DNA of 64,000 nt from Clytia hemisphaerica (taxonomy: Eukaryota > Cnidaria > Hydrozoa > Leptothecata > Clytiidae): contig CACVBU010000259.1 of the NCBI GenBank assembly GCA_902728285.1, forward strand, positions 392,798-456,797. The letters run 5' to 3'. The notes under the pieces are model-generated. The model made no database searches, was not told the origin of the DNA, and saw nothing but the letters and a program-made list of their open reading frames with translations. A program made the translations under genes and the position numbers. Of the stretch, positions 3,401 to 31,343 are shown one piece after another (position 1 is the stretch's first letter; each line of letters begins with the position of its first letter).

Positions 3401-6400
3401 ATGTTGCAAATTTTACAATCTATAGAAAGAACTGAATAAAAAACGTGCAAATACTTTAAAAAATCAAAAATGTCATTTTTTCTCTTTGTTTTGGTTTCTT
3501 TGTTTGATTTGAAATGCCAGAAAAGGGGATTCCTTTGCTCAAAATGGCATTTCAAATGCCAACGAAATGCCAAAACGCTGGCATCATTAGGCATTTGACA
3601 AACCGAACAAATTACAAAATGCCAGGCTGGTCTAAACGCAGCCAGTTATGACAAGGGTTTAAAAAAGCAACTTAGAATTGTCTTATTTTTTCAATCTGAT
3701 AAAAACAAAGAGTTGCACTATTCTTTGTGACTTTCCCACTTTTTCCTGAAGAATTGTCATTTCAACTGGACGGCATATTCAGAGTTGTTTCAGACGACAC
3801 TGGTACAGTAAACGATTCTCTTCCTGATAACTTTTGACTTAAACAAAAAATTCGTCTACATCCAAAAGACTTTTATTGCGTTCAGCTACAGCTTAACCGG
3901 CATGCGACGCCGGGTACCGGCTAGTCTATATATTAATAGTGGTAGTCTGTATGTGTGTTTGTCTGTGTTTTCTACTTTCGTTTTCTAATGCAATGTTTTT
4001 GTTCTTCCAAAAGATGACTTCCAGTTCTTGCTCCACAAATGTGTTGAACAATATTCGCGCCGTTTTATAAAGACTTTGAGTTGTTCGATAAGTTTGTTTT
4101 GATTGATAGATTATAATATCTGCCCAGACGTGCCCGAGCCCGCCTCTTATGTTTTTGCTCCGGCCTAGGAGCCTTTAATTCTCTCTTCCGACAATCGTCA
4201 AGACATTTTTTGTCTGTTTATCTAATCCGATGATCTATTCCGATTTAACAAAAACGGATCACTGATTCCGATAATACTGTGATTTGATTGGCCGAAAAGT
4301 ATTTAGAAAAAGATGGCTATCCTGGGCTATCGAAAGGTCGTGGACTGGTGAGCTGTCAGGCTGTGAACAGGTGAATACTGGAACTGGCAAATCTCAGTGA
4401 AAAATTGATCATTTTCATCCTTATTCATGATGTTTTGGACATGATTTATGAGAAGTTTGATGTACGTTGTACTGCTACTGTATACTGAATTCAAATACGT
4501 GTGTTTCTCATGATTTTATGCTGTAAAAATGATCTATTTTGGACTTTTGATCATTTTTCATGATGATATAATTGGTGGTTGTCCCTTTTGGATTTTCAAA
4601 CTTGACAATGAAACTTTCAAACACACAGCCATTGATACACAGTATTTTTTGTGGTGTTATGTATGGCTGAAAATGATCCTGTTTTGGACTTTGTTATTGT
4701 CGTATTCATCATCGGCTGGCGACCGTTCCTTTTGATTTTTCAAACCCGACACAGATTTTTTACAAACATATCACTATGAGAATTCAGTAAAGGATACTAA
4801 AACACAACTCCTGTGTAAATTTGAACAAGATTGGAGAAATTTTCACAGTATTATGGCTGAAAATGATCGTTTTGAACTTTGTCGTAATTTCGTCGCGGCT
4901 GGCGACCGTTCCTTTTGATTTTTCAAACCTGACACAGATTTTTTACAAACATATCACTATGAGAATTCAATAAAGGATACTGAAACACAGTTCCTATGTA
5001 AATTTTAACAAGATTGGAGAAACTTTCACAGTCAGACAGTGTTATGGCGGAAAATTATCATTTTTGGACTTTGTTGTAATTTCATCGCGGCTGGCGACCG
5101 TTCCTTTTGATTTTTCAAACCCGACACAGATTTTTTACAAACATATCACTATGAGAATTCAGTAAAGGATACTAAAACACAATTCCTGTGTAAATTTGAA
5201 CAAGATTGGAGAAATTTTCACAGTATTATGGCTGAAAATGATCGTTTTTGGACTTTGTCGTAATTTTGTCGCGGCTGGCGACCGTTCCTTTTGATTTTTC
5301 AAACCCGACACAGATTTTTTACAAACATATCACTATGAGAATCCAGTAAAAGATACTAAAACACAATTCCTGCGTAAATTTGAACAAGATCGGAGAAATT
5401 TTCACAGTGTTATAACTGAAATATAACTGATATTTTTTGGACTTTGTCGTAATTTCATTGGCTGGGGCGACCGTTCCTTTTGAACATTTTTCAAACGCGA
5501 AACAGGTTTTTTCCAAATATAATAAGCAGATATTCAATGGGTAAAAGTTGGTTATTGAGATTTATTAACCCGAGGTGATGTAATATTCAACGAGGCGAAG
5601 CCGAGTTGAATATACATCACCGAGGGTTAATAAATCCAATAACCAACGAAAACCTATTGAATATATGTTTTATTATATACCTAGAGGCAAAAACCAAAAG
5701 AAATTAATTGTGTCAATTGCCGAACGTTTCACATAAAACACTCCCATAATCGAACGTTCGAATGTTTTTCTTTTTTAATGATTTTCTTAATTACTTTGAG
5801 TCATAAAATTTGTTCATGAAATTGACAATTGATTTATTTTAATGAATTTCTTTGATATAACAACAAGAGCGACAAAAAAATCTAACTTTGAAAGCAAAAT
5901 TTGAAAAAAAAATTATACCGTGGTATAATAGCCATGGTATATCAGGAATTATTCAATGGCTGTTTTTGCCTACAGGTATATAATAACACTATTTATTACA
6001 TACACACTATTGAACCATTTTATTTGGTTTATCCTACTCTTCTCCAAGTATTATCCCAGCAGAAAAAATAATGCTTAGCTAAAAACCCGTGGCTTAATGG
6101 GATAAACTTTTGCGGGGATTAAATTTTGCTGATTTCGCGGATTTGGGTGTCATCCGCGAAATTAAGTCTCAATGGAAATTTGGAAAGGCCTCATCCGCGA
6201 AATATTTCTAAACAAAACTCAAAATTTGTCAAACAAATACCTTTTGAATGTTTACTGGCATCAAAGAAGTGCTAATAATGTGTATTTCAACACCCAAAAT
6301 GCACGATTTGACAGTTAAGTCACAAAATCGTGAAAATATTGCCACCCGCGAAATTAAGTCCCTGCTAAATTTTTAAATTTCGCGGGTAGGCCCAATCGTG

Positions 6401-9400: not shown

Positions 9401-12400
9401 GAGAGGTTCTCTGGATAGTATTCCAGCGTCCCCTCAAAGCATTTCTATGTAACATTTGAAGCACTTCAGCTCTGAAGTTGAAAAAAAGAAAGATCAATAA
9501 TTCAATAGTTTCTTTTAAGTGAAATCGTCTCTAAAGGGCGTACACCGAATAGCTGGATTAGTATGAGTTTTGCTAAGATCTTTAAGGATTTTGTATCGGC
9601 TGACAAAATTGGCGTGTTTACGGTGGAACCCTTAACCAAAACTCACCAAGTAGTAAATATAATGTGGGTGACTCTTCAACCCTGTTGTTTTCAACCCTAC
9701 ACCTTTACGGTACCCTTAGGGCCAAAACGGACATCTCATGTACCAAGACACTTCAACGGGGAAAGCTGTCGGCAAGTTACGTATACCGCATGGACGCTGT
9801 GATTGTCTTACGTCCAATCCTTACAACGCTGTCGTCCAACTAGGCCACGCCAATGGTAAGAAATTACTTCCAAAGGTAATTTTAAAGATTTTGAAAAAAT
9901 TAACGAAACTTTAATCTTTTACGACGCTATATTCAACTAATCTGCACTAATAACTTATCTTTATACTTTTTGTTTTATAGGGACGGTTTCTATGTGGGCA
10001 CCGAAAGTAAAAGAGCCGTTGTTGAAAATGTTATGTCATCGAGGTCCTGTGTTATCCATAGCAACAGAACGACAAGGAGTGTAAGAGCGACCATTCTCAT
10101 AACAAATTTTTTTCTAACACTTAAATGGTATCCTTTACACTATTTTTAATCCATAACCTTTCCCTTACTCAAAACAAACTTTTTGATCTCTTTAAGATTG
10201 AGGTTCGATTTATTTTCTATTTCCTACAGGTACATGGCGACTACAGGGCAAGATGGTATGCTAAAAGTATGGGACATCAGAGCATACAAACCTGTTTATA
10301 AATACCGATTTCAAGGCAAAGCTTCCCATTGTTTGGCGGTCAGTCAAAAGGGTCTGCTTGCTGCCGCCTTTGGTTCAAATGTCTACGTAAGTCTTTTCAT
10401 TTTTCAAATGCGCTTTCTAGCTTATCACTAGCGGGTTTTGGCTTAGCGAGTACCTCACCGGGATTTTTTCATTCCGTTTCTTGGTGAGTTCCACATTCGA
10501 TTTTCGAATTTACGTCATTTACAACCAATCAGCCGTTGGGTCCGTAGAAGACATATTTCAATGGTGCATATCATGAGTTGCAACACTTTTTTTGTATTAC
10601 ATAGAAAGCAACACATGCATTTCTAAAACACATAATTTTTAAAATTTCAAATGTTATTTAATATCGTTTGGTTTTGCTTTTTAGGTCTTTAAAGATGCGT
10701 TCCGCACAAGACAAAACCTCCCATATATGAGGCATATTGTCAACGGTAAAGCTGATATCACCGACATCGAGTTCTGTCCTTACGAAGATGTACTGGGTGT
10801 GGGTCATTCTAATGGTTTCACAAGTTTGTTGATACCAGGAGCTGGCGAGGCCAATTTTGATGGTTTAGAAGTCAACCCGTATGAAAGTCGCAAGCAAAAG
10901 GCAGAAACAGAAGTTAAAATGCTTCTGGAGAAGGTTTGAAACTTTTTTTTTTTGGATTCTTTCGTGGTGTAGTAGGTGACTCGGTTTGTTTTCATATCGA
11001 AAAGAGAGTTAAGAGCAAGTTTTTTCAAGAAATGGGTAGTTTGAAGCAGGTCCAATAGTTTAGATTTTTCATATTTGGATATATTTCTAAGTATAGATAG
11101 ATATGAGCCCTCCGAATGAATTCGGGATTGGTCCTACCCACGAAGGAGTAGGAATCACGGCGCTGACAGACACTGCAACTTGACAGACGCGAGCTGCCAA
11201 GTCATGGCGTATACCATGACACTCGAACGACTGGGAGAGCGATGCTCACGCGAGGCCGAACCTTATGAGTGCCACGGCACGTCACAACGTCTGTCTAATC
11301 TACCCACACTCATGTATCAGAGTAATGGTACCCTATTCCCCTCACATGGCATGGGTTGACCCGGGCGAAGGTAAATTCACTTGCCAAGTGAATCGTAGAG
11401 ACATGGTGGGTATCGATCTCGGGCCTCCCAGGCGGGATTCAAGGATGATAACCACTATACCACTACGCCTTTCTAAGAATAATGAACTGAGAAAGAACCC
11501 TAAATTTTGTTGACTTAAAATCCATAATTGCGAATTTATGACAATTTGATTTTTTTGGAATTTTTAGGTGTTGTACTTAAAAACGTTAAAACCTACATTC
11601 TTTGTCAAAGATCAAGCTTTGATTTTAAGCTTTCTAGAGCGATGGTTTATAATGTCATGTGTGAGATTTTTACTACTTTTTTTGTTACTTTATGCAGATC
11701 CAACCAGAGATGATCAGCCTGGATCCGTCAGACATTCAAAAAGTAGACACGGCTAGTACAATCATGAAGCAAGAAGAAAAAGACGAAAATATGGTATGTT
11801 GTCTTTCTTTTGTGCTTGTTGTAGCGTCCGACTCGTTGTTTAGAAATTCATGATTTGAGTCCGAAATGAATTCAAGCCTAAGTCTGTCTCAATATAATTT
11901 GCAGCGGAGACAAAAAAGACTATAACTTTTGACAGAATTTGAATTAGATAGCAGTTTTTCGCTTGTTGAAAAGACAAACAGGAGTGGAATATTATCATTA
12001 AAAAAAAATTTAAAAAATATCGGAAAATGAAGAAGAAGAAAATCAGCCTCTTTAATAATCGTCCTATAATTATCAATCTAATATATCTAATATTATCGTC
12101 CTAATAATTATAATTTTTACATGAGTGATTCTTTGATCTTAGAACGTCATTAATGTGAAAAAATTGTTCAAAGAAATTTGCTCCATCGAAAGATGCAGTC
12201 CAAAATTTATCACTGATTGACTTCAAAAATTATCAAAAAATGACAAAAAAGAGCCCTTTTACAAGTTAACCAGGGCAAAGTTTTAAGCTGTATTTTTTGA
12301 CTGAATGAAAATTTCATGAATTTTTTTTCGCATTTATGACGTTGTAAGATTAAAGAATCGCTGATTTAAAAATGAAGATCATAGCATTGTTCTACGAAAA

Positions 12401-15400
12401 GTTGAGTTTCTTCTTCTTCATTTTTCATCTTTGTTTTTCGATTTTTTAATTAATTTTTATTTTTGACAACATTTCACTCCTGATTTTCCTTTGAACAAGC
12501 ACAAAACCGCCATCTAATTCGCATTCTATCAAAAGTTATTATTTTTTGTCTCCACTACAAATTATATTGAGACAGAAATTAATTAAGCAAATTGCCTTCT
12601 AAAAATGTAAATACTTTAATGATTGCTTAAAGTTGTATTTAAGGAGAATAGCATGCCCTGAAAAGTTGCCCTGAAAAGTTCCATTTTTCATTTTTCATTG
12701 AGCCGGGAAAGTTAATTGAAAATGTATGACCTTATCTTTACAATTCAGAATTTATCCATTTCGACGTCTCTTTGAATGACATTAAAATTATAAGAACCCA
12801 TCTAGTTTCACTTGTTGCAGCTGAACGAAATCATTGTCAGTTTGGTTGCTAAACATTTATTAGTCCGATAAATAAAGGAGTGTTGATTTTTGAAGAGAAA
12901 AAATCGAAATCAATGACAGTAAAGGCCGGTCTCCTTTCGTGCGAAGGTCGGTTGAAAAATGATACGATTCCTTTGGGCAAATCTGACGTAATGATTAAAA
13001 AAAATGAACTTCTATCAACTTTTTTAATGACCTCATCTTTTCTGCAGGCAAAAACGATTGACAAAAATGTTTCGATTATTTTCGCGCAAAAGTGGAGAAG
13101 GGCCTGAACGAGTTTTACAAACTGATAATTAATTTACAAAAGAATTGATAGACATATATGAATACACGCTTTTTTTATATAAGAATGGTGTTTTTTCATT
13201 TCATTATGGATATTCTTAACTTTTTGGGGAAAATCATCCTAAAATATTCTTACGGTATTCTTAGGTTAGGATCCAAAAAAAACCTAGAATTAACATGTAA
13301 ATACATACCTGAAGCAAAAATGGCATTTTTTAAAAAGGTTTGAGCCTTCCTGGGGGATAGTTGGCAATTTACAGATAAAAATTCTCTGAAAGGGGCATTC
13401 TAAGGTTCAGTTGCAATATTCCATTATGGTGATATTATAAGCGTATTCTTAATTTTTTGCCCAATTTCATCATTCTTATAAAGTATATTCTTATAAAAAA
13501 AAGCGTGTATAATGAAAAGTTATATTACCCATTATTGGACCAAACGCTGTTTTCTGAGACGGTTTTCTATGATGATCGGGCTCAAAAAATAGCAATAGTT
13601 TTTTCTGTTTTATTAAGTTAAGTGACTTCCACAATTAAGGAAGCAAACGTTCGATTTGTGTAAGGGATTGTCTCTACAGATTCGAACGTTTGTTTCCATA
13701 ATGGCAGAAATTACAGGAAATTATGTTTGTTTTTTTTTTAATTACATCATACAAGATCGACTTCCCTGAAATAAAATAGGGTTCTTCTGTCTACAAATTA
13801 AAGGATAATAAACAAATATTTACAGAAATTAAAAGTATAAATAATAATTTTTTTTTTTATCCAAAAAGTTCATTTCCACAAACCAAGGTAGAAGTCAGAG
13901 CGATAAGTGATATTGGGAGCAAGGAAACGAACTTTATAGATAATATATTAAAATTTTTAAGTTTGTACTAAATAAATAATTAAAAGAATAACCTTAAATA
14001 AAAGTACTAGATAATCGAAAGTTCAAATCGAAAACCATAGAAGGTGTTAATGCTAGAGAGAAAAGTGAAATTTGCAGAAATGTTGGATATCTAGAATCGG
14101 AATCTGAAAACAAGAGGAAAAAATTGTTATGTTACTTAACAAAAAATGAAATGAAACACTGTTGTTATTTCTTAGCCTGATCAGAAAAACCGTCTGAAAG
14201 GTCTTGAAATACCTCTATACGTAAAAGCTGTCTTAAAATTTGGACATTCCGGTTGATTTGGATGTGTTAAATCGGTTTCAACATATGACAAAAAATAATG
14301 TTCCAATTTCATCACTTGTCTCGGCCTATAGCTATAAACCATAAACCAATCAACCTACTGATTTAAATCATTTAATAAAAATAATAATAAATAAATAAAA
14401 ACGGAAAAAAACTCATTAAATCCCATGATTACGTCTCATTCTCTATATGTTGGTTTTGATAGTTGATGATCATGTCTCGACTAATACCCTAAGCCTTGAC
14501 ACATTGGAACTGCTTTCCATGTGGACAACTGATTGTTTTCAGGCCTGGCCCCATGGGGACGGTTCCCTTGTGTTTTTGTTTTAAGGGAAATTAGTTTTTC
14601 AATCCAGGTGATTTGGATGTGTTAAATCGCTTTCAACATAAGACAAAAAATACCAATTATCAAGTTCCAATTACCAAGTTCCAATTACCTCACTTCTCGT
14701 TCCTATAAAAGACTACAGTCCCAGCTGGCACACAACATTGTTTAAACGTTATTATAACGTTATACGTTGGTGGACGTAGTGAACGTTAGATAGACGTTGA
14801 AACAACGTTGTGTGTCTGCTGGGCTCAATCTTTCAATGCAGAATGTATTTCAGTTGTTTTTCTTTCGGAACATCATTTTCGTTTCGGGCAATCCTTCCTG
14901 CAGGTCGTTGGTGAAGTGATACCAATGAATAGAATTGGCTTCATAGTGTACATTACCGTCATTCGGGTACTTACCATTTAGGTTTGCTCCCAACACAAAA
15001 CATTGCTTAAACCACCATCCGACTTCGAATCTATCCGCACAATTATAATCATTATCGACATCAGGTGTTGAAAATTTCATGCCATTATGATTCAAAAAGC
15101 TGGCATGGTATTTCCCTGTTGAATGATCAGATACGCTTAGCCGATATCCCGATGCTTCGTCACTGATTGAAAAGCTTTCGAATTTGGCAAATGCCTCCAT
15201 ACCATTGAAGCGTTTGGCATAGATTAACAATTCGACAGGTTGCTCTCTGGTGAACTGGTGAATGTGTTCAAGACCCAACCAATATTCTCCTGTGACGTCA
15301 CCAAATCCCTCGGAATATTCATTCCAACTTCTAATGAAGCTTTCTGATCCATCAAATCTTTTCTGAAAGATGGTCCAACCTTTACCATGCGGCGTGCTCA

Positions 15401-18400
15401 TCTCGCAATAAACTTCAACAACTTTTCCCTCTATTAGGATTTTGTAAGCTCCATTTTCAGCAGTATGGTCACGCTCGTAGTAATCCATGCAATCTTGTGG
15501 CGGGGGTCGATCTATTTTGAAAATCTCACTTCGGTTGTTCGGTCTCAAGTTGGAAGGCAAATCTTCGATAGGGTCAAAAATGGAACAAACCATATCTCCT
15601 GATTCATTTAGTCTGGTGATTTGTGTGATGGAACAGAGTTTGTTTTGACAAAGAAGAAAGCATTCAGTCGAAGTAAACACCACTTGTTGGTGGATAGGAA
15701 TTATGCTTTCATCGATGGAAGACTGGTCTGCAATTTGGATGTGTTGTTCATCATTGGCAATAACACCAGGTAGACTTTCCAGGAGGAATATTGCCAATAA
15801 ATGAAGCCAAAGCCTGATCAACATTTCTTCACAAAAAATTCTGAGAAACAAAATAATATATAATATTTCAAGGGATGATTGATGACTTTCGAGTATAATT
15901 TTTAATAATAAAAATGAAAAATAATTGTTATGAAAATTTGATTGAATGTTTTTTCAGCTTGAATGGATCTCATTAGAAATTACTTAGCAACGCAAATACA
16001 AATTGAAAATATCTTCTATATGTTAAAAGTTTTCTTTTACATCAGTGTTCCCGTTTCATATCAGACACTTGTTTCATATCAGGACAGTGTCTGCTTATTG
16101 TTATATCGTGCTGATAGAAGCAAAAAATGTTTTTTTTCTCTCTTTTTGACCAGTCTTGTTCCACCTACGTGTCAATCCAATATGAAAAAGCTTGTAAATT
16201 AAAATTGATGAGTAAGCAAACGATATCACTCTTATTCAAAAACAAAACCTTTAATTAAATAAATAAATCCTTGTGTACATCTTTATGACACGCCCTATAT
16301 TGCAAAAACTATTCATACTTTCTCTTTTCAAAATTCAGTAGAATTAGAAATCTCGCTAGAAAATTTGAATTTTTGCTTCGATAAAGATTTAAATCTCGCT
16401 TTGATGAAATTAGAAATTTCGCTTTGCAAAAAGTAGAAATTTAGCTTTGATAAAATTTGAATTTTCGCTTTGATAAAATTTGAATTTTCGCTTTGATAAA
16501 ATTTGAATTTTCACTTTGATAAAGATTGAAATCCCTTGTCATAACTTTTCGAATTTAAACATAAAAAATGACGTACACACTTTTTAATAGTAACAACGAC
16601 TTGAATATTTTTATAGAAAGGAAGAGGTGAAATAATTTCTTCTCTTGCTTTATATCGCCCTTTGAATGCTGTTGTTGTCCACAAACTTTTTGATTTTTAT
16701 GTTTTGATATACTTTTGATTGTTTTGTTTTGAAAAGAATTCGAATGTCATTAATAAATACGATCGTTAAATACATTCGAAAACATTTAAAACAAAAGAAG
16801 AGAGAAAAAGGCAAGTCTGGGCAAAAATTAAAATTACTAAATGTAGATGGGCCTTAAATTTCAAAACAAAGGCTGAATAAAGTCTAAACCAAGCTCTATC
16901 CGATCTTTTGCAAATGGCGCGAATCCAATAGAACAAGTTTGTGGAGCAAGAGAGTAAAAGTCATAATTTTAAAACACAAACAAAGCCAAAACGAAAGTGG
17001 TGACACACAGACAATTGCGCTAAAATGGATCCGTTGAAATTGGGAGGTAAACATAAATTGTAGCGCGAGTAGCGACGGTATGGCTAGCAATCCATGGAGT
17101 ACGCCCGCGTAGTACGGCCCAGCTTCAACACTACATTTCCGTCACGTAAATATTCTACATGAATTCTAGACCTGTATAAAAGTTCCCGCGTAAAACAAGA
17201 ACTCATTTGCTTATATCTGGCTTGTTTATGTTCCTAAAAATACACTGAATTTGAAAAAAACAAACAAAACAAAGCTTTCAAGATGCTAGCAGAAGCTATT
17301 AGAAAGACAAAAACAACAACTTTGGTGGTTCTTCAGTTGATTTGGAGGCTCTTTTGGCATCAACATTTTGGGTGTTTTGTAAGGCTTTTTGCCTGAAAAC
17401 CGCAATATCGAGCTTTGTTTACCTCCCAAAAAGTGTTGCGTAGCAGCAACGCGAGGAGGTGGAATTTCCGATAAGGTGTATTCTATCAAAGCGAAACAAG
17501 ACGACGAATATGCTTGTGCACCGTCCTTTGTTTACTTTGTAAGAGCTTATTATCGAAACGAAGGGTATATGACCGTCTATCTAGAGTTGTTGATTTGATT
17601 CTTATAAAGTAATTGCTTACTAGAAAAATAAATATGGTCATATTGTGCGCCGTCCTTTGTTTACTTTGTAAGAGCTTATTACCGAAAGATAATAGTATAG
17701 CGTTCTATAGAGTTATTGATTTGATTCTTATAAAGTATATGCCTCTAAGAAAAAAGGGAAAAATTCCGAGCTTTGAAAGCTGCACACATGTTTATGAGGT
17801 ATTCTAAAGAAACCCCGCCAAAATCGTCCGTGGTTATACGAGCGTGTAAAGTGAAAGTTAAATTTAGTGAGTCCATCCACCGTAATAACTACTTTGGTTT
17901 TCTAAATGTTACTCCACACCGCCGCGAAAGGCTATCGTAATACTTTCGCTATGCGAAATTAAAAAATTTTAAACTTTAGCAAAGCAGGATTTAAACTTTA
18001 TCAAAGCGAAATTCCCATTTTTATCAAAGCGAGATTTCTAGTTCTAAGGAATTTTGAAAAGCGAAAGTATGCACAGTTTTGCAACATAAGGCGCGTCATA
18101 CATCTTTAATCGTAAAAAAATTAACAGCAGTTTCTTTTCATTATTCTAAAATTTATTTGTTTACGTTTCGGTACTCAACAGGGAACCATCCTCAGTACAG
18201 TAAAATATTGAAATTAATGAAAATGTGTAAATAATAAATGGGCAAACTGGTTGCAACTCCATTTAGCCATTTAGATAACTCATATAACCACTCCGAGACA
18301 CATTCATTTTTATTCTTATCTTGTTAATTTATTAACTCTCTTTCAGGCTCCTATACATTTTCCGATTTTGGTTGTTTTTGACTGGGATTTTCCTAAAAAA

Positions 18401-21400
18401 TTTTAGCTGGCATTGTCCTAAAATTTTGCTTAGAATATAAACATTTTTCAACCTTATCAATCTCTTGATCTAAGCGTCTCCGACTCAGTTTTTTTATGCT
18501 TATATAAAAAACATGTAAGTTAAAGGAGTCGTTGTTACTACACAATAAATCAAACCTAAAGTCTGTTCTAAAAAAATTGACAGTCTGCGCACGTTTTCAT
18601 ACATTTCTCTTGAAGGAGAAAATATATAAAAGGAATACCTTGTTAAAAACATAGTCATTATAAAAAACCCCGGTCTGGAAGGCTTTTGTTTCTTTCCATT
18701 GTTAACAGATAGAGCTTGTGTTCGCAAATCGACTTTATTTTGCATACTTTTTGATCATGTGATTGAAATTTAGACCAATCCCAAAAGGAGAATTTGGTAA
18801 CGTGATCAAAAAGTATGCAAATCCCAACTTGCCTTTTATTTATAACAAAAGAAAATTCGACAATAAAGCTAAAACAATACATTGCCAGACCAGTGTTTTT
18901 TATAATGACTATGTTAAAAAGATCATTTTAAGTGGACGATTTTCAGTGGCGTATTTAGGAATTTTGCCAAGTAGGTCAAAATTTTGAAGCCAAGTTGTTC
19001 AAGTCTGGTTCTTGGAAAGGCGTTTATCATTTTTCGTTTAATCGCTATCCGAGTTATTCTATGCAAGATTCCACTTTTGTTCAGACGGACGTAGTTTGTA
19101 TCGCCACTCGTACTATGTTACAAATTATGGGAATTTTTTTACTCAACGTATACCCCTGTCTCACGTTTTAACTACCTTTTTACGCCAATTAACCGCTTGT
19201 GGTAAAAAAATAGATACTGATGTGGAGCAATGTTCGTTTCCCCAAAACAAGAAATATAGATGAGTTATAGTTGAGTTTATAGGCCTTTATATCCCTAAAA
19301 TTATTTTTTATGTTTTGAATTGAATAGGAGGTAATTAAATGGTGTCAAATCATTCTAATATATTCATTTCTGCTCACAACAACAACCAAAAAGCAGGTAA
19401 AAAACAAAGTTTTAAAAGACATTGAAAAATGCTTCATTTTTGTTAAAAAATAAACATTATTAGTTCAACTTAAAGCAGTGACAACTGGTGCTGATACTTA
19501 ATACCCTGACGATCAATTCTTAGCAATCGATCCATAAGAATTAAAGCTATAAAATCACAGTTAAGACGTGAAAGTTACTTGGACTTTCACAAAATTTCAG
19601 ATCAAACTCAAAAGTTAACTGGGTCGATTCAGCAAATTTCAGCTCTGGAAACTGAGCTTCTCTCAATAAAAACTGTGAAAGAGATAAGCTAGGAAATGTG
19701 AATTGAGTATTGTTTTTTAATAAACTCGACAGAGAAGCTGTACGTAGCCTCATAGCTATTACCCCGATTTTTTCAGAAATTTTGCTAGGTCGTTTCAGCC
19801 ATTTCTAGCTATGACTCTCGGCTTCATATTATCTCTAAATGAACGGCGGCCAGATATATAAGCAGTCACTCAAGGTCATTACACGTGAATTTTTAGAGAA
19901 GTTGAGCTCGGTAATAATATGATCCCGATTTGCTAGGGCGAAAGAGGTCAAAAAGGGTGTTGCTAAGTCACTCAAGCGGGACGATATGGGTCGGGCGGTA
20001 TTAGATAGGTTTCGGATTATCAAAATAAAAGTCTCTAAATAGCGAAAGGTTCACTCGCAAAACATTAGGGAGGTAATACTGCGGAGATAAATTTCAGTCT
20101 AGTTTAGTTAGTTTTAACTGCCGCACGCATAAAATTGATAAAGTTGATACAAGACATGGCATCTGCGAAGGGGACTGTGTATCACTAAGAGGAATAAGAT
20201 TGCCTGTTTCACAATTTTTCATGTTTTTCAATTTCTCGGAACTATGTCACTTGACCTACTTGACCTACCCTAAATACGCCTCTGATTTTAAATCTTTCAA
20301 AAATTTCGAAAGGGAAGATGAAAAAAGCAAAGATTTTTTCTACTCCACAAAAAATTTTGAAATTCTAAATTTCTAAAAATTTAAACTTCGCTGAAATCAA
20401 AAGTCCTTCGAAGTAGAAGTTATGTTCTTTGAGACAGTCATAACAATTTCTTTATTTATTTACTTCATTGGTTTAAATTAATTGACGATTCGAAATATGG
20501 TATAAAAATAAGCTAACCAGTTCGCATGAATGATCAAAGCCATAAAGTTTTTTTCACAATGGTGATATTCTAATATTGAATTGTCATTGAACGTAAAAAT
20601 GACATTCATCAATGGCTCGATTTGTTTTTCCAAGCGTTTCTTTTTTTAATTTTACAGTCACGAACTGATTCAAAAAGAAAATGAGTGTTGTTTATTCAGG
20701 AATAAAAGACACTTTTTGGACCTACCCCGGTGGGGTGGAGGTCCTATAAATTAACCTGTGTTCGTTCGTTCGTCCGTTTGTTCGTCTGTTACCAACTTTT
20801 CTCGGGATTGAATCATAGGAATTTTTCGATTTTTGGTACAAAGGTTCAAAATAGTAGTGACCTAATTGTGACAAAGTCGTTGATATGAAAGAATATTTCA
20901 AGAGCATGAAATTTTGGTTTCTCAACGTTTTTTTTATAAGAAACAAACGACTAATTTTAATAAATCGTCACTATTTGTGTTCTGAATGATTGTTTAATGG
21001 TCACGTCACGTAGATATCAATTATAAATGTGTTAAATGCATAACCAGGTAGGTCCATAAAAGTATCACTTGTTTATTCTGCTACTGGCAGTTTCATGCCA
21101 TTTTTGGGACAATCTTCAGGCAACTAAAAATAAAAAATATATACGTTATCTATTTTTAAAAAAACAATTCATTTCATATGAGTATTGTTTATTCAAACAT
21201 TGGTTCGTTACAGTGGCAACATTCTATTTTTATTCAAAGTATTTTTATCATTGAGCTGTTCCATTAAATTTCCATACAGGGGGTTGGACACGAACCTTTT
21301 TAAGGCAAATAAAGATATATGAATACCCCTGGAAAATGGCAAAATTTGCAAAAGAACCCTTGGAAAAGTACCATTGGAAAAATTCTTTACATACCTAAAA

Positions 21401-24400
21401 AGTAAGGGTGGAAGAACTGAAATGAGTCTTTTACCCCTGGAAATTACAGAATAAACTTTTACCTTCTAGAAAAATGAAAAAATACTCCGTTATACCCCCT
21501 GGAAATTCTTCTCCGGTTACCCCCTGGAAATGTTCTTCCACCCCCTGTATGGATATAAAAATAGAATGGCCCACTCAACCACAAAAGGTTTTCATGTTTT
21601 TTTCTCGCCCGCTTTCGTGATAAATAAAATTCTTTACTGAGTTTTTTTGTGAAGAAATGTTCCTCTGGCTTCATTTATTGGCAATATTCCTCCTGGAAAG
21701 TCTACCTGGTGTTATTGCCAATGATGAACAACACATCCAAATTGCAGACCAGTTTTCCATCGATGAAAGCATAATTCCTATCCACCAACAAGTGGTGTTT
21801 ACTTCGACTGAATGTTTTCTTCTTTGTCAAAACAAACTCTGTTCCATCACACAAATCACCAGACTAAATGAATCAGGAGATATGGTTTGTTCCATTTTTT
21901 ACCCTATCGAAGATTTGCCTTCCAACTTGAGACCGAACAACCGAAGTGAGATTTTCAAAATAGATCGACCCCGCCACAAGATTGCATGGATCACTACGAG
22001 CGTGACCATACTGCTGAAAATGGAGCTTACAAAATCCTAATAGAGGGAAAAGTTGTTGAAGTTTATTGCGAGATGGTCACGCCGCATGGTAAAGGTTGGA
22101 CCATCTTTCAGAAAAGATTTGATGGATCAGAAAGCTTCATTAGAAGTTGGAATGAATATTCCGAGGGATTTGGTGACGTCACAGGAGAATATTGGTTGGG
22201 TCTTGAACACATTCACCAGTTCACCAGAGAACAACCTGTCGAATTATTAATCTATGCCAAACGCTTCAATGGTATGGAGGCATTTGCCAAATTCGAAAGC
22301 TTTTCAATCAGTGACGAAGCATCGGGATATCGGCTAAGCGTATCTGATCCTTCCGCTGGGAATTACCATGCCAGCTTTCTTAATCATAATGGGAGAAAAT
22401 TTTCCACATTTGACCACGACAATGACTTATTGAATAGTGAAAACTGTGCAAGCAAATACAAGTCGGGATGGTGGTTCGGAGCTTGCCTTGATATGAACCT
22501 AAACGGTGAATACCCATACGCTGGTGATATTTTATACAATGCATATTCCATTCATTGGAAACAGCTTGTTGGACTGAACCAGGGGCTGGTGGAAGCGAAA
22601 ATGATGTTCCGAAAACAGAAGAAGCAATAACTTTTGTTTTTAATAATGAGCGTTGTCATGGTTGGTGTTATAATGACTAACTTCTCGGGATTTTTTTGAC
22701 AGCCGTGTTAATTCATTGTTGATAAATATTTTATTCATGTATACTGTTGAATTTTTTTATTTTTTTTTTGGACCTACCTGGAGGTCCTATAAATTAATCT
22801 TTTGCCACCTGTTGGTATCGTGTATTTTACAGACCGGTCCAAAATTGCTCTTTTTTTCCTAAGATACTGTATATAGTGTACAAGTTTTAGGTATTGATGA
22901 TACAAGCTTGCAGCCAAAATTTCAGCAAAATTGGTCGGGTGGTTATGCTGAAAGTGAGCATTTTAGGTAAAAAGCGGACCGTTCTGTAAAATACCAACCG
23001 CTCACATGACTAAAACACTGTCTTAGATGGTTAATATCTATCAATGGTGAAAATTTCAAGTCGAAAACTCCAGTAGTTTGTGAATTCCGGCAGAGGGTCA
23101 CTGTGTATTTTACAGACCGGTCTGCAAAGTACTAAATACTAATGGGAGCGAATCTGTAAACTAACAATCAAACAGGTGGCTGAACCAAAATTTTGTAAAT
23201 CATCATTCTACTATCTACCACTGGAAAAATTTGAATATGGGGAGTTGACCCCCTGGACACTCAAAATCACCCCTTATCCTTAAAACAAGGAAATTTTGCA
23301 GATTTTTCACTACCCCCTAGACAAAATATACAATATATCCTCCCACCATGTACAAAAATTTTCTGGAAGAGGCCATTTCAAGGTCATAGCACTTGTCAAT
23401 CTTGAGATTTTAAGGCAAATTTGCAAAGTTAAATTAGAGTTTAGACTTGACACGTTCACTCCCGAGCCCTTTTAGGAAGTCGAGAAATCGTCCCCATAGA
23501 ATTTCGTAGAATGATCATCTTGTCTGAATATGGCTTCAAGTGTCTTTATATTGTATAACAGTCGATACAGATGTGTTTTATATGAATTTCAACAAGAAGC
23601 CCGTTGGGCGTGAAGGCCCTGCGATAGAGGAGACTGACTGTATAAAGACTTTCAGTTGGCAGTGTTAGGGTTTGTGACAATTTTCGTTTTCGTTTTGAGA
23701 ATCGCAAAGCAATGAAACTCAGTTCGTTATTTCTGTTTACTTCGATTTCTGTTAGTCAATTTTGTTCTCTTGCCTTAAGCAAGAAGTAATGATGTGAATT
23801 TGAATTTAACTAGTTTGACATGGGAAAATACCTCTAAGTGAATAGGCCTCACGGTGAGGTACTTTCCCATGTCCAACCATGTCCAGTAATGGGCGGTTGT
23901 AGAATTTTATCATTGAAATTGAACATAACTTGAAGTCGTTTAGGATTTTTTGTATTTTTTGTATTTGAACTCTATTAAAAGATGTAAAGGTCAAATTTAA
24001 AAATGTTCTGCCATCTGGATATAATTGACTCTGCAAATTTAATAATAGTCGTGTTTTTTAAATTGTCATGCAACTTTTTGGTAATTATATGAAAATACAA
24101 ATCAAGAAAATACGATTTTAATTTTTGGTTGGTCAACGTAAATCTGATCATCACCAAGGATGTTACTGTTTATAACAATGGGCCATTCCATGTTATATCC
24201 ATACAGGGGGATGGACGAACATTTCCTGGTGGTATTGGAGAAAAATTTCCAGGGGGCATAAAGGACTATTATTTTTTCCAGGGGGTAAAAAGTTATTCTA
24301 AAATTTCAAGGAGGTAAAAGACTGATTTTAGTTCGTCCAGTCTCACTTTTAAAGTATGGAAAGAATTTTTCCAAGGCTTCTTTTGCGTATTTTGCCAGTT

Positions 24401-25383
24401 TCCATCAACACATTTCTAAGAATTTTTTTTGCCTTGAAAAGGTTTGTCCACCCCCTGTAAGGAAATTTACTGGAACAGCCCAATGATGTCAAATTTCTGT
24501 ATTTTGTTCGCAGGAGGATGTGGCCTTTCAACCGAAACACAAGAAGAAAGGTAGAAGTTCTTCCGGAAAAGCTCTCCAACGGAAGAAAGGAGTAGACGAA
24601 GAAAGCAAAAGGGTGAGTTTTTTGTTCGGTCCCGTAAGGCATAACAAATCTCATGGCATTCATTGCGGCAGCATGGAACTTTGCTAATACTTGACTTTAA
24701 GAATTCGTATTGCGTTGTACAGCAGTACATGCATTTAAACTATTTTAAAATTATCTTTCAAAGAAATCCTGTTTAAATGAGTATTCCAGATTAAAAATAC
24801 GTGATGCTGGTAAAACAACCCTAAAGTCTCTAGGCTGCGCACACCTCTCTGATATGTTTTGATATAGGGGATGTGATCGAGTATAAAATTCTCGTCCGAG
24901 AGTTACCCCGTCTTTGTGTTTTTGAGTTTTAGAAACTTGATTAGCTTGATTAGTAAGTTTTATATAAGAGATCTTTAAATTTTATTAGATTTCAATTAAA
25001 AATTTGAATGGCTAGAGGTTAATATAAGCGTTGGATCTCTGAAGCTTTTTAAGGAAACTGAAAGAGGGGACTACAAAATTGGGGTAACTCTCGGACGGGA
25101 ATTTTATACACGATCCGTATCCCCTATATCAAAATCAATTCTGGGGATGCGCACAGTCTATAAAGTCTCAAAAAGCAACGAAATTACTTAGCTTGCTGTT
25201 TGTAAATACAGACATTTAGCCCTGCATGCTAACTTTCATCTTTTCGTTCAACAGGATAAATTGAAATCGAAAAAAATCGAAGAGAAAAAACAAGAGCAAA
25301 TGAATGATAATAAAAGTTTGGTGGAACAAGTTGATACGTCCGCATCTGCATTGGACAGATTCAAAAAGAAGAAAGATACTTGA
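485..25383 (+). CDS. WDR46: WDR46 (UTP7/BING4), WD-repeat nucleolar protein, 5'-partial, 12 exons
   Basis: WDR46/Utp7 is a WD-repeat scaffold of the small-subunit processome, acting in the nucleolus in 18S rRNA maturation (family knowledge). Exons read from GT/AG sites and continuous phase: 485-594, 1029-1116, 1293-1354, 1676-1780, 8782-8932, 9720-9855, 9981-10080, 10230-10386, 10685-10933, 11698-11793, 24514-24612, 25255-25383 (TGA). They total 1482 nt, 494 codons in one frame. Diagnostic stretches: [101 protein letters not shown] and a lysine-rich tail ending [11 protein letters not shown]. The N-terminal exon(s) lie left of the window: the first visible exon starts in phase 0 without Met. 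Introns 1781-8781 and 11794-24513 are very large and transposon-filled; the latter hosts two FReD genes. No internal stop or frameshift is seen. Confidence 0.95.
634..810. mobile_element. MITE, 177 bp, imperfect terminal inverted repeats
   Basis: The left end begins ATAGACCATCTCATGGTYGA-like and carries GGGTAATCAGGAC. The right end read in reverse complement begins ATAGACCATTTCATGGTCGA and carries GGGTAATCAGGACC. The arms are about 50 bp each. It lies in a WDR46 intron. Confidence 0.7.
2238..3924 (+). mobile_element. Helitron-type element 1 (non-autonomous)
   Basis: It begins TCTATATATTATTAGTA directly after an A and ends with a short hairpin (CCGGCA-TGCGA-CGCCGG) followed 7 bp later by CTAG and then T. 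These are the terminal hallmarks of Helitrons: 5' TC, 3' hairpin plus CTRR, insertion between A and T, no target duplication. No Rep/helicase coding is seen, so it is non-autonomous. A separate MITE (3161-3643) sits inside. The interior 2878-3160 is homologous to 6868-7175 of the neighbouring Helitron and to 16530-16900 in inverse orientation. Confidence 0.75.
3161..3643. mobile_element. PIF/Harbinger-like MITE inside Helitron 1
   Basis: Terminal inverted repeats begin GGCTGCGCGTTTAGACCA on the left and GGCTGCGTTTAGACCAG on the right (read inward). It is flanked by a 3-bp duplication, AGT. The homologous Helitron near 7165 has the uninterrupted site (gaaaagttatgac), which confirms a discrete insertion. 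A 3-bp duplication and GG-start ends fit PIF/Harbinger-type elements; superfamily assignment is inference. Confidence 0.7.
4650..5500 (+). repeat. Tandem satellite, about 185-bp unit, 5 copies
   Basis: The word GGCTGGCGACCGTTCC, or a close variant, recurs at 4714, 4897, 5089, 5273 and 5460, giving steps of 183, 192, 184 and 187 bp. Units share a following block with ttttgatttttcaaac and atcactatgagaat. A more diverged copy precedes at about 4529-4640. The array lies within Helitron 2. Confidence 0.9.
5529..5666. repeat. Long near-perfect palindrome
   Basis: About 60-bp arms surround a 13-nt centre (gaggcgaagccga, about 5591-5603). Left-arm words GTTGGTTATTG, TTATTAACCC and GTGATGT recur as inverted copies in the right arm (ACATCAC, GGGTTAATAAA, CAATAACCAAC), with outer ATATTCAAT/ATTGAATAT. 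A transcript through it would form a strong hairpin. Confidence 0.85.
5666..5990. mobile_element. MITE, about 325 bp
   Basis: The left end tgttttattatatacctagaggcaaaaac is matched inversely by gtttttgcctacaggtatataataacac at 5962-5989. It abuts the palindrome at 5529-5666, so the two may be one composite foldback. Confidence 0.65.
6094..6433. mobile_element. CGCGAAATT-type MITE, 340 bp
   Basis: The ends are TTAATGGGATAAACTTTTGC (6094) and its inverse ...GCGAAAGTTTATCCCATTAA (to 6433). The interior is rich in cgcgaaatt and aatttcgcg words. Related elements lie at about 72-285 and 35398-35635. Confidence 0.75.
7193..7455. repeat. CCCTTAGCGGGACT-family repeat copy
   Basis: It shares runs such as gacccttagcgagac, gggggtaaaaagtt, ttagtgggactgaa and gcctaagtaccc with the better-preserved copy at 48850-49181. 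It lies inside Helitron 2. Confidence 0.55.
8297..8436. mobile_element. GACGTAAT-type MITE, 140 bp
   Basis: The left end ATTCACGACGTAATCTTTTA and the right end, in inverse, ATTCATGACGTAATCTTTAA are arms of about 30 bp including TACGGAAACA. A second full copy of the family is at 28544-28656 and a half copy at about 27803-27920. Confidence 0.75.
8527..8690. repeat. CCCCACTGGAAAA-family repeat fragment
   Basis: Repeated phrases of the type ccccaccagaaaat, ccccactggaaaa and tccccattcaaaat. The same family appears at 31745-32025 and 57860-58020, where it ends acaccgggtctgtgagaaggg-like. It lies in a WDR46 intron just before an exon. Confidence 0.5.
9005..9152 (+). mobile_element. Partial MULE-like MITE (one arm)
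   Basis: The segment with agactgcacgcatcccc, ttttgatataggg and ccgagagttac matches one arm of the complete element at 24831-25160. Only one terminus is recognised here. Confidence 0.5.
11100..11475 (-). mobile_element. tRNA-derived SINE in a WDR46 intron
   Basis: This block has clearly higher G+C than its surroundings. Read on the minus strand it starts near 11475 with GGCGTAGTGGTATAGTGGTT (A-box-like, as in Asp/Glu tRNAs) and has a B-box-like GAGATCGATACCC about 50 nt later. A non-tRNA body follows, ending near 11100 in a tatctatctat-type short-repeat tail. The head is too imperfect for a functional tRNA gene, and the tail suggests LINE-mobilised insertion. Confidence 0.6.
11883..12576. mobile_element. 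Foldback element, about 690 bp, nearly all inverted repeat
   Basis: The ends are TCTGTCTCAATATAATTTG and its inverse. Pairing continues inward: GAGACAAAAAA, AACTTTTGAYAGAAT, cgcttgttgaaaag and gaagaagaagaaa on the left, with inverse matches at 12410-12560. A second paired zone is 12120-12180 with 12310-12370 (gattctttgatctta / taagattaaagaatc). No coding is seen. Confidence 0.75.
13162..13510. mobile_element. MITE, about 350 bp, ATACACGC ends
   Basis: The left end ATACACGCTTTTTTTATA is matched by the inverse at 13493-13510 (agcgtgtat). Internal words attatggatattcttaac and attatggtgatattataagc also recur. It lies in the 12.7-kb WDR46 intron. Confidence 0.7.
13637..14719. other. Intronic stretch, no gene; small hairpin and a duplicated block
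   Basis: A short inverted repeat lies at 13637-13699 (ggaagcaaacgttcga / tcgaacgtttgtttcc). An ~80-bp block is directly duplicated: 14248-14330 and 14601-14705 share gatttggatgtgttaaatcg and acaaaaaat. Nothing coding was recognised. Confidence 0.45.
14720..14823. mobile_element. MITE, about 104 bp, CCCAGC ends
   Basis: The left end CCCAGCTGGCACACAACATT and the inverse right end (aacgttgtgtgtctgctgggc) bracket a run of AACGTT words. It lies just downstream of the minus-strand FReD stop codon and could fall in its 3' UTR. Confidence 0.65.
14850..15824 (-). CDS. Secreted fibrinogen-related (FReD) lectin, intact, single exon, nested in WDR46 intron
   Basis: Predicted 324-aa secreted protein. 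Residues 1-23 ([20 protein letters not shown]...) form a signal peptide. Residues about 50-82 hold four Cys ([11 protein letters not shown]...VC), possibly PAN/apple-like. Residues about 110 to the end form a fibrinogen C-terminal domain: [44 protein letters not shown], Ca-site-like [34 protein letters not shown]. FReDs bind acetylated or other sugars and act in recognition and innate defence (family knowledge). An in-frame Met nine codons upstream (15851) exists; I chose 15824 because the inverted paralogue aligns there. It is transcribed opposite to its host gene WDR46. Confidence 0.88.
   Translation of the reverse strand: MLIRLWLHLLAIFLLESLPGVIANDEQHIQIADQSSIDESIIPIHQQVVFTSTECFLLCQNKLCSITQITRLNESGDMVCSIFDPIEDLPSNLRPNNRSEIFKIDRPPPQDCMDYYERDHTAENGAYKILIEGKVVEVYCEMSTPHGKGWTIFQKRFDGSESFIRSWNEYSEGFGDVTGEYWLGLEHIHQFTREQPVELLIYAKRFNGMEAFAKFESFSISDEASGYRLSVSDHSTGKYHASFLNHNGMKFSTPDVDNDYNCADRFEVGWWFKQCFVLGANLNGKYPNDGNVHYEANSIHWYHFTNDLQEGLPETKMMFRKKNN
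15852..16285. other. Intronic stretch upstream of the minus FReD gene
   Basis: The region must contain the promoter of the minus-strand FReD gene, but no clear TATA or other site was identified. The rest is A/T-rich sequence without recognisable exons. Confidence 0.35.
16286..18100. mobile_element. Long-TIR DNA element, 1.8 kb, with Helitron fragment inside
   Basis: The left end TATGACACGCCCTATATTGC and the inverse right end TATGACGCGCCTTATGTTGC start arms of about 140 bp that include tactttcKcttttcaaaatt and agaaatctcgct. Short tandem copies of gctttgataaaatttgaatttt lie at 16440-16530. From about 16530 to 17040 an inverted, end-less fragment homologous to the Helitron interiors of 2878-3160 and 6868-7175 is present. 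A ~95-bp direct duplication lies at 17515-17610 and 17646-17741. No transposase was recognised. Confidence 0.6.
18648..18914. mobile_element. Foldback MITE, about 267 bp
   Basis: The left end AACATAGTCATTATAAAAAA with CGGTCTGG is matched inversely at 18886-18914 (ccagaccagtgttttttataatgactatgtt). The centre contains a second inverted pair, GCATACTTTTTGATCA / TGATCAAAAAGTATGC (18742-18820). Confidence 0.75.
18915..20712. other. Intronic stretch, nothing recognised
   Basis: A/T-rich sequence between a foldback MITE and the GGACCTAC element. No exon, RNA gene or clear repeat was identified on either strand. Confidence 0.4.
20713..21072. mobile_element. GGACCTAC-family element, about 350 bp
   Basis: The left end TTTTGGACCTACCCCGG and the right end ccaggtaggtccataaaa are inverse. 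Just inside the left end is aggtcctataaattaacctgtg, then tandem gttcgttcgt. A longer copy with the same ends lies at 61366-63550 and a decayed one at about 22765-23190. Confidence 0.65.
21252..21577. mobile_element. CCATACAGGGGG-family MITE
   Basis: The ends are tccatacagggggttgg on the left and ccaccccctgtatgga on the right. Outer arms read TTGAG-ctgttccattaaatt on the left and, inversely, TTGAG-tgggccattctattt on the right. The interior is rich in ccctggaaa. Relatives: 24177-24484 and 32828-33115. It ends 80 bp before the plus-strand FReD start. Confidence 0.7.
21657..22630 (+). pseudogene. Second FReD lectin copy, frameshifted by one base
   Basis: An inverted paralogue of 14850-15824. The start aligns with the paralogue's second Met ([18 protein letters not shown], signal peptide). 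The first frame runs to 22040; the fibrinogen domain continues in another frame (21986-22630, stop TAA). The break is in a C-run: four C at 21969-21972 against five in the paralogue. The two copies are almost identical up to about 22347 (GYRLSVSD), then differ strongly, with features [22 protein letters not shown] and NLNGEYP. This copy keeps every typical FReD landmark in its C-terminal third. It may be a pseudogene, or the missing base may be a sequencing or assembly error. Confidence 0.8.
22765..23190. repeat. Decayed GGACCTAC-family repeat
   Basis: It starts ttggacctacctggaggtcc. It contains two direct copies of gtgtattttacagaccggtc (about 22821 and 23103) and caggtggc/gccacctg near both ends. 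Probably a remnant of the family seen at 20713 and 61366. Confidence 0.45.
23215..24176. other. Intronic stretch with MITE fragment and hairpin
   Basis: 23215-23380 carries the ccaccatgtac...ttctggaagaggcc end of the TTCCAGAAAATG-type MITE family. 23818-23876 is a short hairpin (gacatgggaaaatacctc / gaggtactttcccatgtc). Nothing coding was recognised. Confidence 0.4.
24177..24484. mobile_element. CCATACAGGGGG-family MITE
   Basis: The left end gggccattccatg...ccatacaggggg and the right end ccaccccctgtaagga...ggaacagccc are inverse. It stops 29 bp before a WDR46 exon (24514), so it may supply part of the acceptor region. Confidence 0.7.
24831..25160. mobile_element. MULE-like MITE with 9-bp target duplication
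   Basis: Terminal inverted repeats are about 80 bp: TAGGCTGCGCACACC... on the left and TAGACTGTGCGCATCC... on the right read inward, both continuing through ttttgatatagggga and ccgagagttacccc. The flanking direct repeat TAAAGTCTC is exact (24822-24830 and 25161-25169). Long arms plus a 9-bp duplication fit Mutator-like elements. It lies in the last WDR46 intron. Confidence 0.8.
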
Positions 25384-28656: not shown

Positions 28657-29702
28657 ATAAGACAAAAATATCAGCTACAAGTAAAACAAGGTTTTTGTGT
28701 TAAAAGATTTATTAACATACTATTGATGACGTACAGGTGTTGATGATTGATCCTATTACTCTGCTCAATATTTTCATAGTGACCTATTTTTGTATGACAT
28801 GCCAGCTGAAAGCATGAAACCAAATTCTAAGAAAACCAAAATTACGCGGTGCTCGTGAAAACGTAATTTTTGTTTTGCGATTCTTTCTTATTTAGCTATG
28901 CATAAATCCTAATAATGGCTAGGAAAGCCATTCTGGTAGTCAAAATGGGTCTAGATTCTACAAGAGCACGTTTGTATTATGACCTAGCAAATCTTTTCAT
29001 TTTCAAGAATTTTTTACCTTTTTGCTACCTATCCGTTAGCTCTCATTAAGCTTAGTTCTTCCAGGTCACAGACTATCCATGCAAAAGCCTGTTGTTCATA
29101 AAACAGAGAAAAAAAGTCGACATAAACCTTGCGGTCTGTAAGATTTACGCTTTTGTTTTTGGTGACGTCATCATGCGTTGAAAGAAAACTTACTGGAGGT
29201 TGGACACTAGCGTATTTAAAAGTGAACATTATAAAGTATTGAAGCTCAGAAATCGTAAACATATCACACAAGTTGGTGAAGAGTCAGCAGTTATCTTTAA
29301 GGTAGCTTGTTTTGTCTACTAGAAATCTCTAGCGGAAGGATAAAAGTTTTGGCTTCCGAACATTTTATTTTAAACAATTTCGGATTTCAACTACCTGAGG
29401 TGGCAAGCTGTAATAATTATTATACCTCGCTGCCTGGATATTGTTTGCAGTTTAATTGATTTTCCTGGCCCTGAAGAAAATTCTGTACGCCAAAACAAGG
29501 CTTTAATTATTGATACCCCTAGGAACTAACTTGTAACGTAGTGAGATAGTTTGGCTTAAAAATTGGGTGCACTTTTTCCTCTACTTATTGACGATTATCA
29601 ACGAATATTGTTTAGACATTTGTTTCAAATATGCTGGGACACACAAAATATAATTTTTTGTCTGCTTTTCTTATTGTAGCGCTTCTTTTTGTTATAATCG
29701 TA

Positions 29703-31343
29703 ATGGATTCAAATATGAAAAACAACGACAGTGGTTGGTCATTAGATTTCCCTACCATTTTGGATTTCACATCTCTCGATTTCACTTCATTTTACAACGA
29801 CGAAACATGGATGAAATCGGAAGAATATCCGCAAGAGTCGCTACCACTCGAAAATTCTCATTTTGATCCGTTGATGATTGAGATGGATCAATATTTGACA
29901 CCCCCGCCTACGCCCCCTGAAAGTATATCCGCCTTCCCTCACATCGAAGACTTGCAGCTCTCATCAGAACTCCTTCTCAACGAAACTAAACATATTGATA
30001 TGCAGGAACTTCAGAAATCAATCACGACTAAAGAACAGACTTTATCAGAAACGCCGACAGATTTTGATGTAGAGGACATTTGGAAATACATTAACACAGA
30101 CTATAACGAAGACACTTCATATTTACAACAAATAAGCTTAGAAAATAATATCATAGACTTTGTTAATTCGATCGATACAAAGACAAAGCAAGAAACAGAT
30201 AAGATTTTACCTCACCAAACAACGAACGATACAAAATTAGGTATTTACCGTGTAGCAAATTCACCCACACCCCACTGATTGCTAGACTATGGGTTTGATT
30301 TTAAATTTCATTGTGTTTTTTCTTAGTTTCTCTGAGCTTTACTTTCTACCGGGTCTGAGCAATGAGATCTATTCTAGAATGAAATACCTCATAATCATTT
30401 TCATTTCTTTCAGAAGAATGTACAAAACAAAGGACAATGGAGAAGAAAAATCTAACGAAAAAAGTTCGAAGAAAAGCTCGAAACCATCGTAAGTTGCCAA
30501 CAGCTTGTTTTTCTTAGATTTACAGTGTGTTCTAACTGAGGGAAGTTCATAAAAAAAATCTCACCCAATTTCCCCTCCTTGAGGTTTCGAAAAATTCTTG
30601 GTGGTCCCTGCCTTTCGTTTTTTGAAAATTATTTAGTGATTCCTCTTACGTTGATATTTTTGGACAAAAATTCGAATATTTAGCAAAAGAACTTGTTTTC
30701 CTTGTTGCCCTCAAATTGTTGTCTATCCTGTAAATTTTTACAAAATGATTCATCCCTCATTTTTGGCAATTCCGTCAAGAAATCTCCCTTTTTCTATTTA
30801 GATATTTATTTAGATATTTATTGTTCAACACACAGGCCATCAAAAGATTTCAAGTAGACTTCGATGATTAGATTTCACCGATTTCACTTGACTAAACCTT
30901 TTTACGGTTAAATTGTTTTCCTCAATCCTCTAAAAAGTAGATAAACGGCAAAACAAAAAAGGTCTCTCTATGATAATTGGAAGTCAAAAATTTCAAAATC
31001 CAAATAAATGAATATGGAGAGGATTTTTTTTCTTTACCACTTTTTTCTCTTTTTAGCAAACAATTGTTATCACCTATGGGACTTCATTCGAGACGGATTG
31101 AACGATCCAAAAGTCACCTATGTGGTATGGGTCAAACAATCAGAGGGCGAGTTTCGTATCACAAATACATCAGAACTTTCACGTAAATGGGGATATTTGA
31201 AAAACTCTAAAAATATGACTTATGATAAATTATCACGCTCTTTGAGGTATTATTGTTCGTTAAATGTATTGGAAAAAGTCCCGGGAACCAGATTGCAATT
31301 TCGGTTTGGTAAGAGAAGAACATGGACCAAAGTAAGGAATTGA
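29703..31343 (+). CDS. ETS-domain transcription factor, three exons
   Basis: Exons 29703-30240, 30414-30488 and 31057-31343 (TGA) join in phase to 900 nt, 299 aa. The N-terminal ~180 residues are acidic with a YLTPPPTPPES stretch, a plausible activation region. A lysine/arginine-rich linker (KKNLTKKVRRKARNH) follows. The C-terminal ~85 residues are an ETS DNA-binding domain: HLWDFIRDGLNDPK, VVWVKQSEGEFRI, ELSRKWGYLKN, MTYDKLSRSLRYY, LEKV, QFRFGK. The two recognition-helix arginines (RSLRYY) are present, but the usual third Tyr is Cys (YYCS). The domain looks most like the ELF/ESE branch by eye; subfamily is uncertain. I start at 29703 because a good splice acceptor (cttattgtag) ends at 29679, leaving a short leader. 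The protein ends right after the ETS domain. Confidence 0.85.

Follow-up and report, generated by a model that had tools for sequence, protein, structure and literature searches.

An inverted pair of FReD lectin genes in a WDR46 intron of Clytia hemisphaerica: probable gene conversion up to the recognition domain

The window, i.e., the whole 64,000-nucleotide stretch of Clytia hemisphaerica DNA analysed here, carries two FReD genes that lie head to head, with their start codons 5.8 kb apart. The pair sits between the second and third of three recognizable exon pieces of WDR46. The features of the locus are the following.

10685..10937, plus strand: WDR46 exon with BING4CT, frame limits (PF08149 at 10721-10939)
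11698..11793 (approximate), plus strand: WDR46 exon with a translation ending in KDENM, from alignment to human WDR46
14850..15824, minus strand: FReD gene, minus copy, from the ORF listing and PF00147
21657..22630, plus strand: FReD gene, plus copy, inverted, from the ORF listing, blastn, and PF00147
21969..21972, plus strand: C run, one base short relative to the minus copy, from sequence comparison and blastn
24520..24610 (approximate), plus strand: later WDR46 exon, downstream of both FReD genes, from alignment to human WDR46

The translations of the three WDR46 pieces, whose limits are approximate and which we joined in plus-strand order, align together to human WDR46 (7mq8_LW) with an E value of 3.3e-40; they also align to Utp7, less fully. 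Exon translations on either side of the pair thus match human WDR46, and the initial annotation was right both in assigning the two genes to a WDR46 intron and in where it placed each copy. Elsewhere in the window, as judged by eye, 29616-31343 (plus) resembles an ETS factor, 36265-37585 (minus) resembles PEX3 exons, and two long frames at 41728-44952 (minus) and 45334-48330 (plus) resemble LINE-type reverse transcriptase proteins. Self comparison of the window reveals local direct repeats at 4658-5521, 51545-52314, 54088-54284 with 56459-56793, and 62234-62685. In the same genome one contig end carries COX1 (PF00115, its frame containing TGA), preceded by frames that look like ND4 and COB and stay open when TGA is read as Trp; such an order is similar to that of linear hydrozoan mitochondrial DNA and would fit a hydrozoan-like cnidarian.

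The minus copy is an intact, intronless frame of 324 aa from its ATG. Its N-terminus is hydrophobic and, by eye, signal-peptide-like; it is followed by a region of about 100 aa without a Pfam match and then by Fibrinogen_C (PF00147, E 1.1e-52, residues 109-320). The best PDB matches are MFAP4, FIBCD1, and ficolins. In the plus copy the reading frame is interrupted, leaving an ORF of 127 aa and, after it, a stop-to-stop frame of 226 aa that carries the FReD domain (PF00147, E 2.1e-53). Both copies have the domain that marks FReD proteins. The one-base deficit, which the initial annotation overlooked, lies in the C run at 21969-21972, the counterpart of which in the minus copy is five bases long (GGGGG at 15502-15506 of the plus strand); it is either a frameshift or an assembly error. 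Fibrinogen_C is the only Pfam family above the cut-off in the two copies. No IgSF domain is found upstream of the FReD, in which the window pair differs from the FREP architecture (IgSF plus FReD), and the 127-aa front piece of the plus copy matches no Pfam family even at E 1. From their family, the proteins may be secreted defence lectins.

A FReD is divided into parts named A, B, and P, whose limits are those of fibrinogen gamma. The divergence of the two copies (Nei-Gojobori, own script) differs greatly along the gene, and on this basis each copy is divided into two stretches.

15126..15809, minus strand: near-identical tract of the minus copy (226 codons, dS 0.021, dN 0.009)
21666..22348, plus strand: near-identical tract of the plus copy, from codon comparison and blastn
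14850..15125, minus strand: divergent last third of the minus copy (dS 1.88, dN 0.33)
22349..22630, plus strand: divergent last third of the plus copy (dS 1.88, dN 0.33)

The front tract begins shortly after the start of the ORF and ends at GYRLSVSD, and only seven of its codons differ. In the last 88 aligned codons dS is 1.88, a value near saturation, as in the old parts of the family generally, that reads only as "old", and a dN/dS of about 0.18 shows that this part is constrained. A change-point is located at base 679 of the 942 compared codon bases, with 1.2% differences to its left and 35% to its right. The log-likelihood gain is 106.6; none of 2000 shuffles reached it, and the largest shuffle gain was 10.7. 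The abrupt fall in identity near GYRLSVSD that had been pointed out is therefore confirmed as real and sharp, and synonymous divergence, compared along the gene as had been proposed, is uneven in the same way. Near-identity had been said to start at the signal peptide. It holds up to GYRLSVSD except in the first codons, which read MLIR in one copy and MF in the other owing to substitutions and a 6-base indel. The last third had been put at three quarters identity; it is in fact about 65% identical in aligned codons and 59-61% in protein.

FReD genes are numerous in this genome: with 150 of 341 candidates scored, PF00147 has at least 151 matches. Some 112 of the 150 matches listed have a frame of at least 300 aa, so most members seem to have no introns in the frame. 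The family comparisons started from 63 distinct ORFs, each 190 aa or longer, to which four were added later to give 67. The A/B-P border had been fixed on the window pair before any family test.

It is the divergent third that corresponds to the ligand-binding end. FIBCD1, ficolins, and tachylectin 5A have the same FReD domain by sequence, and the Ca site and S1 acetyl pocket described for them in the accessible text of PMC3908420 and PMC10825690 map to this part of the window pair. The P-part Cys pair and WW motif, NCA...GWWF..C, are present in both copies, and 59 of 63 family rows have C in the Cys414 column. The two copies depart from those lectins in some respects. The Ca loop of the minus copy (DVDNDYNCA) is short by three to four residues, whereas that of the plus copy has the usual, longer length (13 residues); among the 52 of 63 family rows in which the loop pattern is found, three have the minus-copy length and one is shorter. 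At the S1 residues Tyr405/His415/Tyr431/Ala432, named after FIBCD1 in the same accessible text, the minus copy has F/L/Y/A and the plus copy Y/L/Y/A. Leu in the His415 column of both copies leaves the S1-type set of acetyl-binding residues incomplete, as far as the uncertain alignment columns of the P loops allow.

Protein change in the family is faster at the ligand end than in the A/B part. When 15 close pairs without overlap are combined, pN/pS comes to 0.30 for A/B (sd 124, nd 137) and to 0.80 for P (sd 120, nd 345). At the ten positions that align with the S1 site of FIBCD1 it is 1.21, with a bootstrap interval of 0.66-2.21 that spans 1, and this does not demonstrate positive selection above neutrality at the pocket. 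The five core S1(1) residues give 0.92, five of the S1(2)/S1(3) sites give 1.60 (0.76-4.12), and the rest of the P part gives 0.75.

Among 1830 family pairs, which are not independent of one another, 38 have dS below 0.5 in either part. In nine of the 28 pairs with A/B dS below 0.5, P dS is higher at p < 0.01. These nine make six sets: the window pair, the pair on contig C577, L041/L042, L026/L032, the L017/L018/L022 set, and L008 with L006 and L007. The remaining 19 miss this threshold, two of them at p 0.015-0.019. A reverse pattern of old A/B and young P is seen in nine of the 38 close pairs (p ≤ 2.4e-4), all between {L026, L032, L049} and {L012, L017, L018, L022}, with A/B dS of 1.6-2.9 and P dS of 0.13-0.47; the single remaining pair, L023/L037, has neither pattern. 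It appears that P parts have moved between FReD subfamilies. Because AU tests are not significant, the presumed exchange is drawn not from topology but from the contrast in dS and from L032, which has its 5' flank in common with L026 and its 3' flank with L049. With X and Y denoting the subfamilies concerned, p is 0.115 for a joint X-plus-Y clade in the front part and 0.199 for monophyly of X in the P part; the P tree has Y as a single clade (98/96). L032 itself is mixed, its P dS to L049 (0.435) being no lower than its A/B dS (0.348). The members of these subfamilies are carried on contigs C421, C112, C759, and C672.

Breakpoints were scanned in 26 of the 38 close pairs; positions are those of a 367-aa frame, with the end of GYRLSVSD at 276. 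The window pair, the C577 pair, L041/L042, and L026/L032 break near 273-282, the interval for L026/L032 extending to 307. Breaks at 234-247 are found in two pairs of L008 on contig C33 and in the nine reverse pairs, which break near residue 244 and are probably one event. In the L012/L017/L018/L022 set the positions scatter between 258 and 303. Breaks elsewhere are also seen in pairs distinguished mostly by protein changes (L003/L004 at 272, L044/L046 at 260, L081/L082 at 297, L007/L006 at 233), and in L028/L033 none exceeds chance. As the positions cluster in some pairs and scatter in others, two recurrent borders are suggested but not proven.

Steps of this kind were also seen in other inverted neighbours, two pairs of which are the following.

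Contig C577, minus/plus: second inverted FReD pair, L027 and L043, about 2 kb apart, tail to tail, from the family comparison
Contig C80, plus/minus: inverted FReD pair, L087 and L088, about 6.7 kb apart, from the dS step

The C577 pair is the best parallel to the window pair. Its A/B part is 96% and its P part 53-54% identical (dS 0.069 and 1.06), it breaks at residue 275 as against 277 in the window, and its tract starts about 5 bases before the likely ATG. A clear step is also present in L008 against L006 and L007 and in the C80 pair (protein identity 75% in A/B and 43% in P; dS 0.27 to 0.86, p 7.5e-4). The C80 pair and the C513 pair (L089/L090) were added afterwards as a check of the inverted-neighbour pattern, which they slightly weakened. 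In C513 the step is unclear (dS 0.023 to 0.099, p 0.11), so a rule that inverted neighbours always show it has an exception. The numbers in this comparison are small, with an inverted pair containing stops (C787) left out. Among direct neighbours on one contig, L041/L042 has a step, L012/L017 and L028/L033 have weak ones (p 0.015 and 0.019), and L039/L045, L006/L007, L026/L049, and six C884 pairs have no dS step.

How did the step in the window pair arise? The relationship of the two copies was assessed from their flanks and divergent ends. The non-coding flanks have no similarity beyond 19 bases around the ATG upstream and none downstream, where 150 bases differ at 0.57. The divergent ends were searched against the genome (137 and 85 matches; 150 of 191 and 135 of 135 candidates scored); another FReD matching either 3' third had been proposed as something to look for. 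Among these matches no third FReD is closer to either end; each is the best match of the other (60-61% aa, 95.5 and 96.4 bits), and the next best reach 76 and 55 bits. The two copies are sisters in both trees, with local support of 0.993 for P (54 sequences) and 1.000 for A/B (57 sequences). In 85 family pairs with a P identity of 0.50-0.66, A/B identity is 0.41-0.80 with three exceptions, namely the window pair (0.98), the C577 pair (0.96), and L006/L008 (0.89), each of which is inverted and lies on one contig within about 20 kb. Given the unshared flanks, the mutually best and sister ends, and an A/B identity unusual at this P identity, it is reasoned that the front was made alike and not that the end was made different. 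The window pair has the bounded silent-site identity between older paralogues that marks a gene conversion tract. We therefore put at roughly 80% the probability that two old inverted FReD paralogues in the WDR46 intron had their 5' two thirds homogenised by recent gene conversion.

By this mechanism, about 0.68 kb of the coding DNA of one paralogue, from the start codon region to the start of the P part, would have been copied over the other through interlocus gene conversion. The tract would end upstream at the start codon where homology ends. Its downstream end may reflect either prior divergence of the P part or the removal of converted P parts by selection; on present data these two reasons cannot be separated. 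Nor can donor and receiver be told apart, the seven codon differences in the tract giving no clear direction when polarised against nearby paralogues. The plus copy would then have lost one base after conversion and become a young pseudogene, unless the loss is an assembly error. The outcome would be a common scaffold with two recognition ends, one now behind a frameshift.

The initial annotation had offered conversion of the 5' part or else exchange of, or diversifying selection on, the ligand-binding end; for the pair itself conversion is favoured and the latter two are not. In an exchange, the whole gene would recently have been duplicated in inverted orientation, after which one P end would have given way to that of a third FReD. 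The nine reverse pairs and the flanks of L032 suggest that such movement does occur in the family, although the AU tests for that case are not significant. A duplication at dS 0.02 predicts near-identical flanks, however, and those of the window pair are unshared; together with the mutual best match of the ends, for which the genome searches yield no better partner, this makes an exchange here unlikely, even though a source for one 3' end might have been lost, be missing from the assembly, or be one of the unscored candidates.

An assembly artefact, with one copy being an allele that was misjoined or misplaced, is less likely still. It would account for a frame broken in a homopolymer run, but both copies lie on one 500-kb contig with different flanks, there is no third near-identical locus (among five matches in the genome itself the third is at 70%), and the C577 pair has the same pattern. 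Least probable, and refuted by the dS step as the cause in this pair, is a recent duplication after which the ligand-binding end came under diversifying selection. The pooled pN/pS of 0.80 against 0.30 is in its favour, and so is the value of 1.21 at the ten pocket residues, with the reservations given above (an interval including 1, and 0.92 at the core). Selection on the protein is not the cause of the step since silent sites step too, from 0.021 to 1.88, and such selection does not raise dS ninety-fold; the P-part dN/dS of about 0.18 is also against it. At the level of the family, exchange and diversifying selection have some support, in P parts that have apparently moved and in the faster protein change of P.

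Beyond gene conversion in the window pair, a broader reading of the family can be put forward tentatively, with the odds somewhat against it. The genome may hold a large family of intron-poor, apparently secreted FReD lectins in which the front and the A/B scaffold are homogenised by ectopic conversion, and the P domain is separate, fast-evolving, and exchangeable at recurrent breakpoints. These would form two break stretches, one near GYRLSVSD and the other about 16 residues after EYWLGL, and we hold this part just as tentatively. If true, it would mean that a recognition end is diversified in the germline of an animal that lacks adaptive immunity. Taken as conversion, the window pair is a clean case of a tract that stops at the recognition-domain border. 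If the family pattern holds, it would offer a tractable case for studying how animals that have innate immunity only maintain many distinct recognition ends on a shared scaffold, and whether conversion stops for mechanical reasons (lost homology) or because of selection.

Conversion limited to one domain is a known kind of event, and the interest would lie in a recurrent border. As described in the accessible part of PMC7042247, gene conversion in CEACAM32 and the ruminant CEA family affects part of a paralogue and spares the Ig-like domain exons, which is read there as selection hindering conversion. The likeness to the window pair lies in this limitation. The CEA genes are multi-exon and mammalian, and their converted parts are the leader exon and introns, whereas the break in the window pair falls inside one open frame and within one domain. 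A recurrent break at the P part of cnidarian FReDs was not found in the literature search and may still be in print; the main text of a cnidarian receptor survey, as far as it was accessible (PMC8260672), has no match for FReD.

Large FReD families are found in other animals as well. The mosquito FREP family is one, and the accessible text of PMC1242226 reports diversity at the P-domain binding site and contains no mention of gene conversion, recombination, concerted, or positive selection. Snail FREPs, according to the source portions available, likewise form a large family, with added IgSF domains. In the present genome, two loci on contigs C93 (L052) and C170 (L072, L076) are 97.5% identical over 3.2 kb, as alleles or through recent duplication, and in the C170 copy the FReD is split between two frames.
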